From assembly GCA_031289055.1 (NCBI GenBank), contig JAITQE010000022.1:1-60667 (forward strand): a stretch of DNA of 60,667 nt, read 5' to 3'. The position numbers and the translations under genes were made by a program. The DNA is from Candidatus Endomicrobiellum porotermitis. Its GTDB lineage: Bacteria; Elusimicrobiota; Endomicrobiia; Endomicrobiales; Endomicrobiaceae. Below, in pieces: positions 4,946 through 46,503 of this stretch. Below the pieces are notes generated by a model. That model made no database searches and was not told where the DNA came from. It saw only the letters and a program-made list of their open reading frames with translations. Each line of letters begins with the position of its first letter. Positions within the stretch are counted from its first letter, which is position 1.

Positions 4946-6010
4946 TTATTTTTGATTTATATACATGTCTGAAGCGCATATAATTTTCTTGTAGTATTCT
5001 AGCATAAATTTGTGTTCGTCAGTTTGTTCCGTTATAGAAAGCATTTTAGATTTTGAGTCAAAATTAAAATATAAAATTTCTCCATTTTCTACGTTGAATA
5101 AGACGGCTTTATCGCCGGACAGTATAAAACCGTTGCTGTTAAACGCTATATGCTTTTTGTCTCGGTCCAACATGCTTATTCCTGCGGCTGTGTATTCTAC
5201 TTCCGAAAGCGACAAATCATAAAGAGTCGGCGCTATGTCCATGTGGCATGCTGCGATATTTGCGTTAAATTCTTTCTTTAATTTTTTTTGGGTATGTATA
5301 AATACATCGGAACTGCAGCTCTCCCAAACAATAAAGATAACGTTTGGCTTTATTTTTTCGGCTTCAGCATTCTTAGTTGATATTTTGCTAAATATTGATA
5401 AATCAATATCTTTTTCATCTAAGTCAATTTTCTTTGCGATGTTTATTTTATCGCCGCTTTGCTCAATTTTCGCTTGAATTGCATCGGAAAGCGAAGTGGG
5501 TAGCCGTTAACGCTACGTTGTTTATAAATGAGTTTGTTGATATTTGCGCATGAAATTTTCCTAAAGGAAACATTGAAACCGTGCCTCTTGCAACAAAAAA
5601 TGTTAACAGCGCAATAAAGAGAACTCCAAATATTTTTATAAAAATATTCCAATAAGTAAGAGTTTATAAGGCGACGCGTATTAATCAATTCTTTTGCGGT
5701 TATGGAAACGATTTTATAGATTGTAATCCATGCTAATTTTTTGAGTAATCTTAGATTTCTTAATAAACAAAAAAGCCGTAAAAATTAAAATCACGAAAGA
5801 GTTTATATACGCCAGAGTTGATAAATCAAAACGCAAGCCTAGAACAAATGCCTTAAATATTTCTGTAGAATGTCCAAACGTCGGAATATTTTTAAAATAA
5901 AAAAAGAAAAATATTCTGTAAAGACTCATCGCTGAAAGCGCGGCGACGTTTAATGGTATTATTTTAATAAGACAGTCAATATAATTTTCAAAATCAAACT
6001 TTTTGGACAT
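4946..6010 (-). pseudogene. LTA-synthase-like sulfatase / phosphoglycerol transferase, internally deleted
   Basis: Minus-strand reading starts at 6010 with an intact N-terminus and several membrane helices (residues 1-98), typical of LtaS/YejM-like enzymes. After frameshifts and a stop, the start of the sulfatase domain appears as KPNVIFIVWESCSSDVF (around 5300). It then jumps to the domain end (MDIAPTLYDLS, 5242 to 4946). Most of the catalytic domain, normally about 250 residues, is missing. Intact relatives transfer phosphoglycerol or phosphoethanolamine to envelope polymers. A second broken family member lies at 11137-11879. Confidence 0.75.
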
Positions 6011-6260: not shown

Positions 6261-7145
6261 ATGAGCAATCAAGAAGAAAGCGTAACCCTTCCTTTGGCAC
6301 ATAAAGGCAAGGTTAGAAATGTTTATGACTTGGGTCAGAGCTATCTTATAGTGGCTTCTGACAGAATTTCGGCGTTTGACCATGTGCTTCCTACTCTTAT
6401 TCCAAATAAGGGCAAAGTTTTGCACAAACTTTCAATGTTTTGGTTTGATTTTGTTCAAGGGATAGTTCCAAACCACATTATCACCGGAGATTTTAACACA
6501 TTCCCTACAGGGCTTAAGAAATATGAATATTTTCGCGACAGGTCAATGATAGTGAAAAAAGCAAACAGAGTTGATATTGAATGTATTGTCAGAGGCTATT
6601 TGGCCGGCTCAGGTTGGAAAGAATATCAAAAATCCCAAACAGTTTGCGCAATAAACCTTCCCGAAGGACTAAAAGAATCTTCTAAACTTCCAGAACCTAT
6701 ATTTACTCCGTCAAGCAAGGAAGAAGGCGGTAAACGCGATGAGAATATTTCTTTTGAAGAGACTATAAAAAGAGTGGGTAAGGATACTGCGGAAAGCCTA
6801 AAGAGAATTTCGACAGAGTTGTATAAAAAAGTCGGCGATTATGCGTTGTCAAAAGGCATAATCCTTGCAGATACAAAATTGGAATTTGGTTTTTACGATG
6901 ATAATCTGATACTTATAGATGAAATTTTTACCCCTGATTCTTCAAGATTTTGGGAAATAAATAAGTATGAGGAAGGCAAACCTCAAGATAGTCTTGATAA
7001 GCAATACATAAGAGATTATCTTGAGAGCGTAAAGTGGGATAAGTCTACCCCCGCTCCGGATCTTCCAAAAGACGTCGTTGAAAAAACTATGAGAAAATAC
7101 GTCGGCGCTTATGAAAAATTGACTGGAGCAATTTTTAATGTTTGA
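6261..7145 (+). CDS. purC: SAICAR synthetase (phosphoribosylaminoimidazole-succinocarboxamide synthase)
   Basis: The 294-residue enzyme joins CAIR and aspartate in the purine pathway. The start HKGKVRNVYDLG and the motifs VASDRISAFDHVLPT, ECIVRGYLAGSGW and LADTKLEFG are typical of PurC. Its length fits the long (about 290-300 residue) PurC type rather than the 237-residue E. coli type. An AAGGA site precedes the ATG. It begins the purC-purS-purL-purQ group and overlaps purS by 8 bases, so the two are probably translationally coupled. Confidence 0.95.
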   Translation: MSNQEESVTLPLAHKGKVRNVYDLGQSYLIVASDRISAFDHVLPTLIPNKGKVLHKLSMFWFDFVQGIVPNHIITGDFNTFPTGLKKYEYFRDRSMIVKKANRVDIECIVRGYLAGSGWKEYQKSQTVCAINLPEGLKESSKLPEPIFTPSSKEEGGKRDENISFEETIKRVGKDTAESLKRISTELYKKVGDYALSKGIILADTKLEFGFYDDNLILIDEIFTPDSSRFWEINKYEEGKPQDSLDKQYIRDYLESVKWDKSTPAPDLPKDVVEKTMRKYVGAYEKLTGAIFNV

Positions 7146-13503: not shown

Positions 13504-14020
13504 CGTTGCGGTTATCGCGGGTTCAGGTTCGGATTTAGCTTTAGTTGACGAAACAGTTAAAGTTTTAGATGAGTTTAAGCTCTCGTACAGTTTGAACATC
13601 GCTTCGGCGCACAGAACAGCCGAGCATTTAAAGCAGTGCGTAGAAGGAGCGGAAAGTTCCGGAGCGAAAGTTTTTATAGCAGTAGCGGGTATGTCCGCCG
13701 CTCTTCCGGGAGTTATCGCTTCGGAAACTATTCTTCCAGTAATAGGAGTTCCCGTAGAGCGCGAGCATTTGGCAGGTTTTGACGCTTTGTTATCCATAAT
13801 GCAAATGCCTAAAGGGGCGCCTGTGGCTGCTGTTGCCGTAGGCAAAGCCGGCGCAATAAACGCGGCGATTTTGGCTGTTCAAATCATTGCCATAAGTGAC
13901 GACATTTTGAAAGAAAAATTGAAATCTTACAAAGTTAAGCTTGCTGAACTTGTCGTAAAAGAAGACCTTAAACTTCAAAAAGACGGTTTAGAAAAATATA
14001 TAACAGGTCTAAAAAAATAA
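13487..14020 (+). CDS. purE: N5-carboxyaminoimidazole ribonucleotide mutase (class I PurE)
   Basis: This 177-residue protein shows the class I PurE pattern: AGSGSDLALVDETVKVLDEF, then the substrate-binding SAHRTAEHL and FIAVAGMSAALPGVIAS. It moves the carboxyl group of N5-CAIR to give CAIR. No purK is visible nearby. GGAGG precedes the ATG, which lies inside the end of purD. pyrR starts one base after the stop. Confidence 0.94.
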   Translation: MENRTDVAVIAGSGSDLALVDETVKVLDEFKLSYSLNIASAHRTAEHLKQCVEGAESSGAKVFIAVAGMSAALPGVIASETILPVIGVPVEREHLAGFDALLSIMQMPKGAPVAAVAVGKAGAINAAILAVQIIAISDDILKEKLKSYKVKLAELVVKEDLKLQKDGLEKYITGLKK

Positions 14021-14021
14021 A

Positions 14022-14552
14022 ATGGCGGAAATTATATTAGACGCTCGCGCCTTTCAAGACGCGATAAGAGCGATTTCTACAAAGATTTTTGGCGACAATC
14101 GCAATATAAGCGATTTTGCCGTTGTCGGGATACAAAGCAAAGGGGTGTTTCTTGCAAAGAGAATCATTTCTGAAATTGCTAAGCTTGCCAATGTAAAAGA
14201 ATCTGAAATTCTATTTGGAACTTTAGATATCACTCTTCACAGAGACGATCTTGACGATTTTGAATCTGATATGCCTATCATAAAAGACACGGTTATGCCG
14301 TTTGATTTAAACAGAAAAAGTATAATTTTGATTGACGACGTCCTTTATACAGGAAGAACGGTAAGAGCGGCGCTTGACGTTCTTACTGATTTTGGCAGGC
14401 CTAAATCCATTCAACTTGCGGTTTTAGTTGATAGGGGCTTTAGGGAGCTGCCTATAGAGGCTAAATACGTTGGAGTTAAATACGAAAGTAAAAAATTTAT
14501 AAAAGTTGATTGTAAAGAAGCGGACGGCGAAGATAAAGTTCTTGTAAGTTAG
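14022..14552 (+). CDS. pyrR: PyrR bifunctional pyrimidine regulator / uracil phosphoribosyltransferase
   Basis: The 176-residue protein has the PRPP-binding loop SIILIDDVLYTGRTVRAALD and the PyrR features TLDITLHRDDL and VDRGFRELPI. In Firmicutes PyrR binds pyr mRNA to cause attenuation and has some Uprt activity. It follows purE by one base with no clear binding site of its own. I see no PyrR-type anti-antiterminator hairpin in the 52 bases before pyrB, so its RNA target, if any, is not obvious. Confidence 0.93.
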   Translation: MAEIILDARAFQDAIRAISTKIFGDNRNISDFAVVGIQSKGVFLAKRIISEIAKLANVKESEILFGTLDITLHRDDLDDFESDMPIIKDTVMPFDLNRKSIILIDDVLYTGRTVRAALDVLTDFGRPKSIQLAVLVDRGFRELPIEAKYVGVKYESKKFIKVDCKEADGEDKVLVS

Positions 14553-14604
14553 CGGTTTTTAAACGCTGTTATAGAGAGAAACATATATAAACAGAGGAGC
14601 AAAG

Positions 14605-15540
14605 ATGTCCCTTAACTGCAAAGACTTGCTTGGTCTTGAGCATCTGGATAAAAAAGACTTACAGACGATTTTAGACGCGGTAAAGCCCTTTAAAAGCCTT
14701 TTCACGAGATCTGTTAAAAAAGCTCCGACCTTGATTGGAAAAACAGTAGTAACGCTTTTTTACGAGCCTTCGACTCGTACAAGGAATTCTTTTGAAATTG
14801 CCGCAAAAAGGCTTTCGGCAGACGTCGTAAATGTCGCGGTTAGTGCTTCAAGCGTAGTTAAGGGCGAAAGTTTAATAGATACGGGCAAAACGCTTGAAGC
14901 TATGAAAGCCGATTATATAATTATCAGGCATTCGCTGGCCGGAGCGCCGGATATTCTGGCGAGAAATCTTAACGCTTCAATAATAAATGCGGGCGACGGT
15001 TTTCACGAGCATCCGACGCAGGGGCTTCTTGATTTGTATACGATGTATGAGAAAAAGAAAAAAATTGAAGGTTTAAAAGTGCTTCTCGTTGGCGATATTG
15101 CTCATTCAAGAGTTGCAAAATCTAATATTTGGGCGCTGGCTAAAATGGGGGCTGAAGTTGCGGTGTCGGGACCGCCCACTTTAATCCCTGAAAATATAAA
15201 AGATTTGGGTGTCAAAATATATTATGATTTAGACGAAGCGGTAAAAAAGGCGGACGTAGTAAACATCTTAAGAATACAGCTTGAACGCCAGCAAGAAAAT
15301 TTGTTCCCGTCAGTTCGCGAGTATGTAGAATTGTACCAATTAACAAAAGAAAGACTTGGCAAAGCAAAGGCAGGAGTTTTAATTATGCATCCTGGACCCA
15401 TGAACAGGGGTATAGAGATTTCTTCCGAAGTCGCCGACAGCCCAAACGCGGTAATCAACGAGCAGGTAACAAATGGGATAGCTGTTAGAATGGCAGTTTT
15501 ATATCTTTTAAAAAAGAGGAAAAATGCGTCTTCAAATTAA
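14605..15540 (+). CDS. pyrB: aspartate carbamoyltransferase, catalytic subunit
   Basis: The 311-residue enzyme catalyses the committed step of UMP synthesis. The carbamoyl-phosphate loop [12 protein letters not shown] lies at residues 53-64, the HxxQ region appears as [13 protein letters not shown], and [12 protein letters not shown] is near the C-terminus. No regulatory pyrI is seen. AGAGGAG precedes the ATG. It overlaps pyrC by 17 bases. Confidence 0.96.
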
Positions 15541-42021: not shown

Positions 42022-43281
42022 ATGGATAAAATAATAATACGCGGCGGAAAAAAATTGAAAGGCGAAGTTATTATTTCGGGATCAAAGAATTCTGCCTTGC
42101 CTATTTTGTTTGCGACTTTGCTTACTGATGAGCCTTCTGTAATAAAAAATGTTCCTTCTCTTGCGGATATAAACACAACCGTTGAGTTTTTGAATTTCAT
42201 AGGTAAAAAAACCGTTAAAAAAGGAAATACCGTAAGAACTTATCCTTCAGAAAAATATAGGCATATAGCTCCTTACGATTTGGTCAGAAAAATGCGCGCC
42301 AGCATTTTAATAATGGGTCCGTTGCTTGCAAGGCTTAACCGTGTTGACGTTTCTTTGCCCGGAGGCTGCACTATAGGGGCAAGACCTATAGACATACACT
42401 TGGACGCGTTTAAGAAGCTCGGAGCTGGTATTTTCGTTGAAGGCGGGTATGTTAAAACTTTAGCTGAAAACGGGCTTAAAGGCGCTGTTATAGATTTAAA
42501 ATTTCCTAGCGTCGGAGCAACAGAAAATATTTTGCTTAGCGCGGTTTTAGCCAAAGGCAAGACTACCATAATTAATGCGGCTAAAGAGCCTGAAATAGAA
42601 GATTTGGCTAATGTTTTGAATAAGATGGGGGCTAAAATAAACGGCGCGAGTACTGGAAAAATAGTCATTGACGGGGTTGACGGCTTACGCGGATTTACGC
42701 ACGAAGTAATTCCCGATAGGATAGAAGCTGCGACATATATGATAGCTGCGGCTATTACAAAAGGAGATATTGTTCTTAAAAGTGTTATTCCAAAACATAT
42801 TGAAGCGGTAAGTAATAAATTGAAAAAAAGCGGATTCTTTGTTAAGGAAAATAAAACAAGCATTAGGGTTAAATGGGTTAAAAGTTTAAAGCCTCATAAT
42901 ATAAAAACGGAAGTCTATCCAGGGTTTCCTACCGATGTTCAAGCGCAGTGGATGGCGCTGATGTGTCTTTTAAAAGGACATTCAAAAATAGAAGAAACCA
43001 TATTTGAAAACAGGTTTATGCATGTTGCGGAATTGCAAAGGTTTGGAGCGAATATAACGGTAGACTGTAAGGTCGCCAATATAACCGGAGTTGAGAAATT
43101 CTCGGGAGCGCCTGTGATGGTTTCAGATTTAAGAGCGGGCGCAGCTCTTGTATTGGCTGGACTTGCGGCGGAAGTCAAGACAATAGTCTCAAGAATTTAT
43201 CATCTTGACAGAGGCTATGAAATGCTTGAAAAGAAACTTAAAAAACTTGGCGCGGATATAAAAAGAGTTCATAGTTCGTGA
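42022..43281 (+). CDS. murA: UDP-N-acetylglucosamine 1-carboxyvinyltransferase
   Basis: The 419-residue enzyme starts peptidoglycan synthesis. The N-terminal MDKIIIRGGKKLKGEV and SGSKNSALPILFA are typical, and the catalytic cysteine lies in LPGGCTIGARPID (Cys116), the residue attacked by fosfomycin. The frame is open upstream to 41884, but homology begins at 42022, so I use that ATG. The intact gene implies that a cell wall is made. Confidence 0.95.
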   Translation: MDKIIIRGGKKLKGEVIISGSKNSALPILFATLLTDEPSVIKNVPSLADINTTVEFLNFIGKKTVKKGNTVRTYPSEKYRHIAPYDLVRKMRASILIMGPLLARLNRVDVSLPGGCTIGARPIDIHLDAFKKLGAGIFVEGGYVKTLAENGLKGAVIDLKFPSVGATENILLSAVLAKGKTTIINAAKEPEIEDLANVLNKMGAKINGASTGKIVIDGVDGLRGFTHEVIPDRIEAATYMIAAAITKGDIVLKSVIPKHIEAVSNKLKKSGFFVKENKTSIRVKWVKSLKPHNIKTEVYPGFPTDVQAQWMALMCLLKGHSKIEETIFENRFMHVAELQRFGANITVDCKVANITGVEKFSGAPVMVSDLRAGAALVLAGLAAEVKTIVSRIYHLDRGYEMLEKKLKKLGADIKRVHSS

Positions 43282-43296
43282 TTGGAGGTAATTGGC

Positions 43297-44457
43297 ATAG
43301 TTAAAAAATTTTTTTTAACAGTATTTTTGATAGTAATCAAATTGAATTGTTATGGGAATAACTTGCAAATTGATAACAAAATAAAATTTTGGGAAACTCG
43401 TAGAAAAGGCGCAAACGTTTTTAATGTTCACGTGTTAAAAAATGATATTTTAGACGCAAAAAAATATAATATACAATTTGTCAGATTAGCTGTGGATAAG
43501 TTTCCAACGAAAGAAAGAGATTTTCTTATTGGCAATGCGGACAACTATTCTGAATTAGTGAAAGATGATCTTGAGTTATTAAAGAATATTTTAAATTTTT
43601 GCGATAAAGCGGGCGCGCACGTTGTTATAACGATGCTTAGTCTTCCGGGTCATCGTTGGTCGCAAAATAATGGAAATAAAGATGACTTAAGACTTTACAA
43701 AGATGCAAAGTTTCAAAAGCAATCAGCAATGTTTTGGAAAGACTTGGCGAGAGAACTTCGGATTTATAAAAATGTAGTAGGGTATAATATTTTAAATGAG
43801 CCTCATCCTGAAAGAATTTTTAATAAGCAAGATATCCATATAGAGAAAATTAATCAGGATCAAGTCCAAAATATGTTGTTTGAATTCTATAATTTAATAG
43901 TTAAGTCTATAAGAGATGTTGATCAAAATACTCCAATTATTCTAGATAGTTCAGCCTATGCTGATCCTAATACTTTTAAATATCTAAAACCTGTAAATGA
44001 TAGCAATGTGATTTATTCATTCCATATGTATGAACCTTATGAATATACAAATCGTGAGCGTAATAAAAATAAATATTCTTATCCTAATTGCATAATAGAA
44101 GATATTTGTTGGAATAAGCGATCTTTGGAAAAATATATGATAGAAGTATATAAGTTTCAAACAAAGTACAAAATTGCGCATGGTAAAATTTTAGTAGGAG
44201 AGTTTGGTTGTTTTAGAAAACAAAAAGGCATAGAAAAATATTTTGAAGATTTAATTTCAATTTTTGATAAGTATGAATGGCATTTTGCATTTTATGCATT
44301 TAGGGAAGATTGTTGGGATGGTATGGATTACGAACTTGGCGATAAAGATTTGCCATGGAGTTATTGGCAATCTTTAGAAAAAGGAAAATCATATAATCTA
44401 GAGAGAAAATCTACATATCTTCAGTTTAAGGTATTAGAAAAAGCCTTAACTTCATAA
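43297..44457 (+). CDS. secreted GH5 family endoglucanase
   Basis: The product (386 residues from 43297) has a signal peptide (KKFFLTVFLIVIKLNCYG) and a GH5 (beta/alpha)8 domain. The acid/base Glu is in YNILNEPHPE (about residue 168), the nucleophile Glu in ILVGEFGC (about residue 302) and the His in SFHMYEPYEY. Such enzymes cut beta-1,4-glucans. The GGAGG site 15 bases after murA points to ATA at 43297 as the start (VKKFF follows). A TTG at 43282 is the only conventional start. The gene looks more AT-rich than its neighbours, so transfer is possible. Confidence 0.8.
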   Translation: MVKKFFLTVFLIVIKLNCYGNNLQIDNKIKFWETRRKGANVFNVHVLKNDILDAKKYNIQFVRLAVDKFPTKERDFLIGNADNYSELVKDDLELLKNILNFCDKAGAHVVITMLSLPGHRWSQNNGNKDDLRLYKDAKFQKQSAMFWKDLARELRIYKNVVGYNILNEPHPERIFNKQDIHIEKINQDQVQNMLFEFYNLIVKSIRDVDQNTPIILDSSAYADPNTFKYLKPVNDSNVIYSFHMYEPYEYTNRERNKNKYSYPNCIIEDICWNKRSLEKYMIEVYKFQTKYKIAHGKILVGEFGCFRKQKGIEKYFEDLISIFDKYEWHFAFYAFREDCWDGMDYELGDKDLPWSYWQSLEKGKSYNLERKSTYLQFKVLEKALTS

Positions 44458-44500
44458 ACCAAGCGAATGGAAGATTTACAATTATTTTGCGTTTTGCATA

Positions 44501-44518
44501 CCCCCCCAAAAAAAAAAA
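44501..44518 (+). repeat. C7-A11 homopolymer pair
   Basis: Seven C followed by eleven A lie about 65 bases upstream of orphan-family copy 2. TATTAT follows shortly after. It mirrors the tracts at 3021-3037 and 60582-60608. Confidence 0.85.
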
Positions 44519-44583
44519 GAAAAAAAGACTATTATATGCTCATGGGAGATATTTTCTTACAAAATTTAACTAAGGAGCGTATT

Positions 44584-44872
44584 ATGAAGAAAGTAACGAG
44601 CGTGTTGTTAGCGTTGTTGGTTTCGCCCATGAAAACAGCTTTTGCCGAGGGATGGGATACTTATTTGGGAAGATTTAAAGGAAAAGCGTTTGCGGCTGGA
44701 CAGAGAGCGGGTATCAGAAAACAAAGCGAAGTGCATTGTTGGATTAGCGTGCGCGGTTGGCGTATGCATCGGCGTGTATAAGATGGATACTATTAAAGAA
44801 ATTTTCTTTCAGAAAAAACCTCTTCTTGTGGAACAAGAACAAAATGAATCCTCCAACGTCGTCTGGTTTTGA
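44584..44872 (+). pseudogene. orphan 'GLAC' family small membrane protein, copy 2 (frameshifted)
   Basis: An ATG with TAAGGAG upstream starts a signal peptide (MKKVTSVLLALLVSP, then AFAEG) and WDTYLGRFKGKAFAAGQRAG. A frameshift near 44715 separates it from the second half in another frame: SENKAKCIVGLACAVGVC, IGVYKMDTIKE and an acidic tail EQEQNESSNVVWF ending at 44872. The signal peptide DNA is about 85% like copy 3 (60374). No known family was recognised. It could be a pseudogene or need frameshifting. The tail segment (ACAAGAACAAAATGA) is repeated again about 70 bases downstream. Confidence 0.6.
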
Positions 44873-44997
44873 AATAACTTATATTTCCGTTGACTTATGA
44901 AACAAGAACAAAATGAGGTTGACGTCTACCAGATCAAGGCGCTAGTCCTAAGGATGAGTAAATAAGCCGACTAAGATAATTAATGATTGATCTATAA

Positions 44998-45060
44998 TCA
45001 TTACGGCAAAAGAGTAAATGAACAATCAGGTTCTGAACCTCAGAACCTGATTGTTTCTAG
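44998..45060 (+). repeat. repeated intergenic module with 14-bp hairpin, copy B
   Basis: It nearly matches 3053-3114. The core hairpin at 45023-45053 has the same 14-bp stem with loop ACC, followed by TTTCTAG. It sits downstream of orphan-family copy 2, as copy A sits downstream of copy 1. Confidence 0.75.
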
Positions 45061-45111
45061 TATTTCGTCAGAATCTTGGATATTAAGGTAGCGCTTGACT
45101 ATGCGTGAACG

Positions 45112-45143
45112 CTCAAGTCTTTTCATTTTTGAAAAGACTTGAG
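45112..45143 (+). terminator. intrinsic terminator
   Basis: A perfect 13-bp stem (CTCAAGTCTTTTC and its complement), a 6-base loop and then TATTATTTT. It insulates the ATPase gene from upstream transcription. Confidence 0.7.
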
Positions 45144-45238
45144 TATTATTTTGACGTTATAAAAGGAAAATAGAGAATAAATACTTAGGCTTTATGTTTT
45201 TTTAGTTTCCTCCCCAAATATGCAATTATGCAGTAGTA

Positions 45239-45267
45239 TTGCATATTTGCATATTTAGTGTTATACT
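45239..45267 (+). promoter_or_regulatory. promoter of the DUF4143 ATPase gene
   Basis: TTGCAT at 45239-45244 and TATACT at 45262-45267 are separated by 17 bases. The expected transcript start near 45274 lies after the ATG at 45271, so the ATG at 45292 must be the start. TGCAT/ATGCA units recur around it. Confidence 0.6.
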
Positions 45268-45291
45268 TAAATGCTTAAAGAGGTATGCTAT

Positions 45292-46503
45292 ATGCACAAA
45301 AAGAGAACTCTAAAAAATACTCTATTAGAGTATTCCAATTCATTTAAAGTTATTCTAATAACAGGCGCTAGGCAAGTAGGAAAAACTACTTTTTTAAAAA
45401 ATTCTGCTCAATCAAACAGAAAATATGTTAGTTTAGACGATCCTTCAGAATTGCTAAAGGCAAAGACAGATCCAAAAGGTTTTCTTATAACTTACGAACC
45501 CCCGGTTTTTATAGATGAAGTTCAGTATGCGCCAGAAATCTTTAAATATATAAAAATGCTAGTAGATGATTCTGATAATCGCGGACAGATATGGCTTACA
45601 GGTTCTCAAGTATTCAATATGATGCAGGGGATTACTGAAAGTCTTGCCGGTAGAGTAGCTATTGTCAATATGTTTGGTTTTTCAATATATGAAAGATTTG
45701 GTAAAGGAGATTTACAAAAACCGTTTTTACCTGCTAAAAAAAATATAACTTCTGTGCTTAAATATAAATCTCCTAGCGAAACTTTCCGCATAATTTGCCA
45801 AGGGTCGTTTCCTGATGTAATAGAAAAGAATCCAAAAGAAAGAACCGCTTTTTATGATTCTTATGTGAAGACGTATCTTGAACGAGACGTTAGGCAAATA
45901 ATAAATATTAGCGACGAAATTTCGTTTATTAAGTTTTTAAAGGCAATTGCTGCAAGAACAGGACAAGAGCTTAACTTAACAGATATTGCAAAAGATGTTG
46001 ATATTTCTACTAATACAGCAAAAAGTTGGATTTCAGTTTTACAAATTTCAGGATTGATTTTCCTATTACAACCTTATTTTAGGAATGTTGTAAAGAGACT
46101 TATAAAAACTCCAAAATTATACTTTATGGATACGGGGCTTGCGGCATATCTTGCAGGGTGGACAACGCCAGAATCTTTAGAAGCTGGAATTTCTTCCGGG
46201 GCTTTTTTTGAAACGTTCGCGATAAGCGAAATTATTAAATCTTATAATCACAATGGGCTTACTCCAAACTTATATTATTATAGAGATAATAATAAAAATG
46301 AAATAGATTTACTTATAAATCAAGACGGACAGTTTTATCCTATAGAGATAAAAAAGACCGCCACGCCTAAAGAAGATGATATAAAAGCTTTCAAAGCTTT
46401 CTCAAAGATGGAAAAAGTTGCGTTTGGGAACCTAATTTGTTTGGCTGACAAGAGCAAACCTTTAAATGAAAATGCGACTGCAATTTCTATTTGGGATATA
46501 TAA
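45292..46503 (+). CDS. AAA-type ATPase with DUF4143 domain
   Basis: The 403-residue protein has the P-loop ITGARQVGKTTFLKNSA near the N-terminus and the Walker B-like PPVFIDEVQYAPE. Then follow LTGSQVFNMMQGITESLAGR and a C-terminal half with YFMDTGLAAYLAGW and EIDLLINQDGQFYPIEIKKT. That half is DUF4143, which has a nuclease-like PD-(D/E)xK core. The cellular role of these proteins is unknown; they often behave as mobile accessory genes. I choose the ATG at 45292 after AAAGAGG because the promoter would exclude the one at 45271. Confidence 0.85.
   Translation: MHKKRTLKNTLLEYSNSFKVILITGARQVGKTTFLKNSAQSNRKYVSLDDPSELLKAKTDPKGFLITYEPPVFIDEVQYAPEIFKYIKMLVDDSDNRGQIWLTGSQVFNMMQGITESLAGRVAIVNMFGFSIYERFGKGDLQKPFLPAKKNITSVLKYKSPSETFRIICQGSFPDVIEKNPKERTAFYDSYVKTYLERDVRQIINISDEISFIKFLKAIAARTGQELNLTDIAKDVDISTNTAKSWISVLQISGLIFLLQPYFRNVVKRLIKTPKLYFMDTGLAAYLAGWTTPESLEAGISSGAFFETFAISEIIKSYNHNGLTPNLYYYRDNNKNEIDLLINQDGQFYPIEIKKTATPKEDDIKAFKAFSKMEKVAFGNLICLADKSKPLNENATAISIWDI

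Follow-up and report, generated by a model that had tools for sequence, protein, structure and literature searches.

A putatively exported GH5-type enzyme gene with ATA in start position in a termite flagellate symbiont falls in a group of mostly host-restricted bacteria

Introduction

Does an intracellular symbiont of termite gut flagellates make a secreted cellulase, and could it do so from a gene whose only well-placed start is ATA? Both questions are raised by a reading frame on contig JAITQE010000022.1 of Candidatus Endomicrobiellum porotermitis, which we analysed over its full length of 60,667 nucleotides (the window). The genome to which it belongs comprises 1.04 Mb in 26 contigs and is 91.8% complete. 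A first-pass annotation had read the frame as a secreted GH5 endoglucanase that would bear directly on lignocellulose digestion. The setting that it presumed, a symbiont of gut flagellates, is that of the genus: in the passages of PMC11257099, those members of the family that are established as endosymbionts of termite gut flagellates are placed in Endomicrobiellum. We therefore address here what the protein is, where its gene came from, whether the frame is still maintained, and which role would fit.

Results

Sequence context of the frame and its start

The GH5-type frame (43297..44457, + strand) runs for 386 codons from ATA to a TAA stop, and its translation into 386 residues contains no internal stop. 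Since an open ortholog with 78% identity exists, a frame of this kind is far beyond chance. Its upstream neighbour is murA (42022..43281, +; PF00275, 363.5 bits). As first described, 15 bases (43282-43296) separate the murA stop from the ATA (43297..43299, +), and a Shine-Dalgarno-like GGAGG (43284..43288, +) precedes the latter at 8-base spacing. Within this spacer, a TTG (43282..43284, +) is the sole in-frame ATG, GTG or TTG; it abuts the murA stop and would yield a protein of 391 aa. The closest AGAG is located about 14 bases upstream of this TTG, which is far, and its ribosome-binding site is thus badly placed. No standard start codon with a well-placed ribosome-binding site was found in this spacer; the well-placed site fronts the ATA.

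Residues 1-20 (43297..43356, +) resemble a signal peptide, with two Lys residues followed by a hydrophobic stretch (maximal 12-residue mean hydropathy of 2.72). A hydrophobic N-terminal stretch is shared by all 13 rows of alignment A2, the weakest being those of L062 (1.12) and L060 (1.57), so that the signal peptide proposed earlier is supported as a prediction. The GC content in 500-base windows is 0.26-0.32 in the GH5 gene vs 0.38-0.43 in murA.

Downstream of the frame, positions 44458-45270 contain a homopolymer tract near 44500 and a signal-like ORF of 64 codons (44587-44781) without a Pfam match; this stretch looks like debris. It is followed by an intact AAA_14/DUF4143 ATPase gene (45271-46503), with the GH5 gene on one side and rpsB on the other. 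In the sister species (genome G005, see below) this ATPase is matched only over about the last 52 codons, and the interval is therefore eroding there.

The protein has a GH5 fold and a partly altered active site

Membership in GH5 is well supported. The protein matched the Pfam Cellulase profile PF00150 with 85 bits (cut-off, 23.5), and the whole-genome scan, in which it was the sole GH5, gave 85.4 bits. PDB endoglucanases were matched with E values of about 1e-26; a search against NCBIfam gave no match. An AlphaFold2 model (mean pLDDT 94, pTM 0.91) resembled solved GH5 structures with Z scores of about 30-34 for the first 17 listed, TtEnd5A being the top match.

Both catalytic glutamates, already recognized in the first reading, are present on strands 4 and 7: E168 of the NEP motif (43798..43800, +) and E302 of GEFG (44200..44202, +) are invariant in all 40 rows of alignment A3. 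We take E168 to be the general acid/base and E302 the nucleophile, as in GH5 enzymes generally. R63, N167, H243 and Y245 are likewise invariant (each 40/40). The canonical GH5 active site presumably comprises this Arg and Asn, the strand-6 His and Tyr, and in addition a His after strand 3 and a Trp on strand 8. In all 40 rows, the position of the CelC His is occupied by Leu or Ile, and that of the CelC Trp by Tyr. Because these two canonical residues are replaced, cellulase activity is not to be assumed, while the protein remains a GH5-fold relative. Both replacements are found throughout this GH5 subgroup, including the free-living rows of A3. Judging from the conserved residues, the sampled family probably still cleaves a β-glycoside by retention. 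Endoglucanases account for the majority of the top fold matches, but the list also includes a GH5_22 xylosidase and an endoglycoceramidase, and the fold therefore does not settle the substrate.

The gene groups with homologs from mostly host-restricted bacteria

We scanned the genome_contigs collection (84,980 species) with two peptide patterns, a search that reaches only sequences holding one of the two, and obtained 353 stretches, 330 of them relatives; the best 80 of these relatives were used. After the copy of a congener, the best 14 of these showed 48-61% identity. They originate from an unplaced Proteobacteria MAG, four Holosporales including Holospora curviuscula, a Rickettsiaceae, a Rickettsiales and a Puniceicoccales genome, a Chlamydiae bin, two Amoebophilaceae, a Coxiellaceae, a spirochete symbiont of Olavius and a Parachlamydiaceae member. 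Twelve of these 14 best named matches belong to groups that we take to be host-restricted. The two exceptions, for which this lifestyle is doubtful, are the unplaced Proteobacteria MAG (L054) and the 0.9 Mb Puniceicoccales MAG (L057); the order Puniceicoccales is not host-restricted as a whole. The next 65 rows of the best 80 are at most 45% identical, and free-living genomes are among them.

In our careful tree (66 rows), the window GH5 falls in a group of 19 rows (ultrafast bootstrap 100, SH-aLRT 100), and the same 19 rows form a clade in a quick tree of 98 rows rooted with a far outgroup (SH-aLRT 95). The 32 rows dropped for the careful tree were six of the far outgroup, duplicates, near-copies and the long branches L051 and L090; L092 was left out as it has no long frame, L063 and L142 were represented by their longest open part, and L064 carries an X at a stop. 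The group consists of the window copy, 14 records (L053-L066) and four genomes from a sample of the Rickettsiales order. Free-living homologs fall outside it. By record name, its members represent Elusimicrobiota, Pseudomonadota, Verrucomicrobiota, Bacteroidota, Chlamydiota and, by the word spirochete, Spirochaetota. A subgroup of eight rows (95/90) unites two Endomicrobiellum copies with those of three Holosporales MAGs, the Puniceicoccales, the Coxiellaceae and the unplaced Proteobacteria MAG. A single clade for the ten alphaproteobacterial members was rejected (p-AU 1e-9). The 13 genomes that hold L054-L066 (G065-G077) are 0.7-2.1 Mb in size. Five rows from Chlamydiota and Dependentiae form a second group (100/100) separate from the first.

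Most of the 19 members are MAGs, and such bins may hold foreign contigs; the Chlamydiae bin L060, for example, groups with Rickettsiaceae L056. The name of the Olavius symbiont points to a worm as its host instead of a protist. The isolate codes Pcl387, Nc350, Gsp477, Gx481 and Gx485 look like one termite-metagenome series, judging from the naming; the main text of PMC11257099 does not contain 'Pcl387'.

Taken together, the trees show, at the level of sequence comparison, that the window GH5 was acquired horizontally, and that the members of its group in the scanned genomes are mostly host-restricted and spread over several phyla, as judged by record name or order. The hint of transfer that had first been drawn from AT-rich codon use is thereby placed on firmer ground. 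Vertical descent within Elusimicrobiota was rejected because the GH5s at the order and class level (L006-L011) sit on a very long branch.

We also considered plasmids and phages as carriers of the 19-row group and rejected them on the basis of the plasmid records and viral_contigs searched. A tblastn search matched 51 of 72,556 plasmid records, all at less than 60% identity. Of 20 listed among these 51, five records were examined, and four were placed in the first tree (L048 as L102, L049 as two rows, L050 and L051), all outside the group; L052 was unplaced. In a scan of viral_contigs, 36 stretches matched, none of them coding for a relative. Upstream of two sister copies of the gene we observed genes sharing an HATPase_c_4 domain (L054:179-1534 and L063:3166-3663); the L054 gene also has an AlbA_2 domain, and its L063 counterpart is much shorter.

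Four copies within Endomicrobiellum are in different states

With a profile of the group we detected a GH5 trace in 4 of 41 genus genomes (completeness 34-99%); among the 14 with a completeness of 90% or more, 2 have one. Two copies are open, in the window genome and in G009, and two are broken, in G005 and G034. The murA gene, found in 37 of the 41 genomes, is native to the genus.

G005 is the nearest relative of the window genome (MurA, 97%) and has its GH5 copy at the same position behind murA, with an ATG aligned with the window ATA and GAAGG in place of GGAGG. Its frame is disrupted by a frameshift in a shortened A/T run, and the middle, about codons 81 to 356, is missing. In G034, a piece comprising about codons 130-367 and riddled with stops and frameshifts adjoins murA. 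G009 (L053; Candidatus Endomicrobiellum guadaloupense Pcl387_bin170, JAITJN010000010.1) carries its open copy, 78% identical to that of the window, at 13774-14922 of a contig of 15,541 bases, and only a short GH5 remnant with the same left junction as in G034 is left behind its murA. The open copy has moved behind comEC (region L053:4329-7152) and is preceded by an approximately 54-base match to the murA 3' end. As a vehicle of transfer, comEC was rejected: it is present in 23 of the 41 genus genomes, and its identity to the comEC located near the Holosporales copy amounts to just 25%. In G011, G022 and G025, rpsB follows murA within about 350 bases, and the profile search revealed no GH5 trace in between. 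Most simply, the gene would have been gained once at murA in this subclade, relocated once and lost several times. Open with ATA in the window genome, relocated but open in G009, truncated in G005 and stop-riddled in G034, the four copies record different stages and lend themselves to dating the death of a gene.

The window frame carries marks of constraint

The GH5 genes of the window and of G009 differ with a dN/dS of 0.20 (dS 0.61), compared to 0.18 for prmC and 0.085 for murA of the same genome pair. With G009 used to polarise the differences between the window and G005, the window branch received five synonymous and three replacement changes, and the G005 branch two and eight. This count covers the codons shared with G005 (8-80 plus the tail) and 18 of 32 differences; we dropped 12 differences past the deletion junction (codons 81-86) and two unpolarisable ones in the tail. 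Keeping the codons past the junction gives, for synonymous and replacement changes respectively, 7 and 3 in the window, 2 and 14 in G005, and 1 and 5 without polarity. Three or fewer replacements out of eight have a probability of 0.013-0.049 under neutrality, varying with the transition bias and based on small counts; the difference between the two branches gave a Fisher p of 0.14. A neutral branch with a length of half the murA dS of 0.108 would remain free of stops with P 0.04-0.08. Finally, the window protein deviates from otherwise invariant columns only twice, within a range of 0-11 among 13 rows. Based on the dN/dS value, the polarised changes, the missing stops and the two column deviations, the frame was probably under purifying selection until recently.

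Because G005 reads ATG at the aligned position, the window ATA is most likely derived from an ancestral ATG. With the frame constrained, three readings fit the ATA: the start was lost very recently, the codon acts as a weak start, or the consensus is in error. The proposal that ATA serves as the start is therefore half upheld: the codon is well placed behind GGAGG, but the closest relative has ATG, and the frame is not visibly decaying. Strain data indicating a loss-of-start mutation had been named as evidence against the gene; the ATG of G005 supplies this in part, yet the frame is constrained. The full GGAGG in the window, as opposed to GAAGG in G005, fits continued use, as a single observation.

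Repeated proximity to murA

Proximity to murA recurs outside the genus. In the Holosporales genome of L058, the GH5 frame begins 35 bases after the end of murA; in the Rickettsiales genome of L059, murA is also upstream and in the same orientation, at a distance of 1.3 kb that includes one small frame. Both MurA proteins are about 47-48% identical to that of the window and 47% to each other, and the L058 protein is 46-51% identical to those of other Endomicrobiellum genomes. From these identities, both murA genes look native. When L048-L172, many of them including 6 kb of flanking sequence, were searched with MurA by tblastn, no further linkage emerged; L138 and L172, which also matched, belong to the same genome as L059. 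Our estimate for a linkage by chance is P 1e-4 to 7e-3, calculated after the fact and assuming random insertion.

At the L058 locus, a direct repeat of 97 bases (86.6% identical) flanks the GH5 gene, with one copy at 5542-5638 covering the murA 3' end and the other at 6968-7064, beginning 75 bases past the GH5 stop. It looks like an insertion boundary; no recombinase was found among the genes examined at this locus. Flanking repeats as a general rule were rejected, since a strong one was present at only one of 25 loci (L058). Of the remaining 24, 23 had no repeat, and a weak inverted match of 23 bases at L161 was set aside. Direct homologous recombination at murA across phyla was rejected as well: the longest identical run of native murA 3' ends between phyla is only 9 bases (10 if the duplicated L058 copy is counted), and plain homology therefore fails to explain the linkage.

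Gain and loss in other orders

We examined the orders of three members for further traces. Traces were present in 4 of 49 genomes from the order of a Holosporales member, two with an open frame, and in 10 of 216 from that of a Rickettsiales member, four of them open. The other copies in the Rickettsiales order show stops, truncation, frameshifts or an interruption of roughly 1 kb; the interrupted gene (L164:7550-8505) is split around model position 318. In the order of a Chlamydiota member, a trace was found in 8 of 190 genomes, and the four open ones are members of the second group. Across the samples of the genus and the two alphaproteobacterial orders, the frame is open in 8 of the 18 genomes with a trace, which is not an unbiased rate because the centre genomes G066 and G070 were picked as known positives. 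Together with the tree, this pattern suggests that the gene was passed around and lost again among bacteria living within hosts, many of them unicellular hosts.

Discussion

Our results show, as far as sequences can, an intact window frame with marks of purifying selection next to a dead copy in the sister species. We consider it reasonably probable that the locus holds a transferred, signal-bearing GH5 gene of a symbiont-rich group, that its ATG has changed to ATA, and that it encodes an exported enzyme for host glycans that was transiently useful. The ancestral gene would have begun at ATG, and the change to ATA would have occurred in the window lineage. The protein would now be made weakly, from the ATA with its full GGAGG or from the upstream TTG, or the gene would be newly lost. 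Once exported, the enzyme may cleave a β-linked glycan of the protist host or of the vacuole contents. It would thus represent a host-interaction trait, useful for a time and then lost, and not part of the symbiont's own sugar catabolism. More tentatively, and with less confidence than we would need to adopt it, the whole group may be viewed as a transferable trait of life inside protist cells: an exported GH5-fold enzyme that endosymbionts of about six phyla exchange, that lands sometimes at the murA 3' end (in one case duplicating it), acts on a host glycan and not on wood, and is lost again, leaving a revolving door of intact and broken copies.

The window copy may be a newly dead pseudogene, in which the change from ATG removed the start and decay has not yet begun; we regard this as a genuine possibility, short of a favoured one. 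The ATG of G005 and the frequency of broken copies, two of four in the genus and 8 of 14 in the two alphaproteobacterial order samples, agree with it. Against it stand a frame without stop or frameshift, which drift would rarely leave stop-free, a Shine-Dalgarno-like site that is full here and weaker in G005, and the TTG start that is still present. Expression from a non-standard start, either the ATA behind GGAGG or the TTG coupled to the murA stop, would account for the constrained frame and for the full GGAGG at 8-base spacing. But ATA is a poor start codon in tested bacteria, and the TTG has no well-placed ribosome-binding site. We consider this explanation just as conceivable as the loss of the gene. 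It is rather improbable that faulty consensus calling or assembly of the draft genome produced the ATA and that the gene in fact has an ATG: an assembly of 26 contigs and the ATG of the relative would be compatible with an error, but the frame shows no other lesion.

An ordinary digestive cellulase, which would feed the symbiont or pay the flagellate host through wood breakdown, is suggested by the GH5 fold, the predicted export signal, the wood-feeding setting and the endoglucanases that make up most of the best fold matches. Still, we find it unlikely. No GH1, GH3 or GH94 match was found in the window genome (at its completeness, a missed gene is possible), the GH5 gene is single, and two canonical active-site residues are replaced. 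In addition, 37 of the 41 genus genomes are without a trace, half of the four copies are broken, and the same group occurs in Rickettsiales, Holospora and Amoebophilus, none of which is known to have a cellulose diet. The direct bearing on lignocellulose digestion that had been claimed for the gene thus found no support. We infer that wood digestion explains the gene less well than the export of an enzyme directed at a host or vacuolar glycan, given the missing partner enzymes, the rarity in the genus and the group members without a known cellulose diet.

In our searches of the open-licence literature we found nothing on a cellulase in connection with Holospora, Amoebophilus, Holosporales or Rickettsia. 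The passages of PMC11481507, PMC12483993 and PMC8809381 attribute no enzyme of this kind to Endomicrobiellum, and the terms 'glycoside hydrolase' and 'glycosyl hydrolase' are absent from the main text of PMC11257099. In the ciliate Euplotes, glycoside hydrolase genes are nearest to those of a Midichloriaceae symbiont, according to passages of PMC13071891, whose main text contains neither 'GH5' nor 'family 5'. Gains of nucleotide and sugar-phosphate transporters from other bacteria are already reported for flagellate endosymbionts (see below). If a secreted enzyme that cuts glycans follows a comparable pattern, this would hint at a structure common to the hosts that the symbionts attack or remodel, and it would make the requirements of intracellular bacteria towards their protist hosts accessible to testing.

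The best solved match of the window protein, by both sequence and fold, is TtEnd5A, a GH5 endoglucanase of Thermogutta terrifontis (PDB 8ag9, 8anx). Profile searches gave E values of 5e-41 (8b3y) and 3e-40 (8ag9), and the fold comparison with 8anx a Z score of 34.0 (3.1 Å over 313 residues, 26% identity). Both proteins share the NEP motif, the HMY region and the AFRE motif. In contrast to the window GH5 family, with Leu or Ile at this position, TtEnd5A has kept the His of the strand-3 motif (DLHTPPG), and it comes from another taxon with another lifestyle. The invariant A3 columns are also shared by proteins annotated as 'Cellulase family glycosylhydrolase' in Pantoea, Ensifer, Pseudomonas, Paenibacillus and other free-living bacteria; these long relatives, at about 37-45% identity, lie outside the 19-row group. 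Closest in pattern are the horizontal acquisitions of ATP/ADP antiporters and sugar-phosphate transporters by Endomicrobiellum, with alphaproteobacterial symbionts among the donors named in the passages of PMC11257099. Like the window GH5, these are gains of Endomicrobiellum from other bacteria, but they concern transporters.
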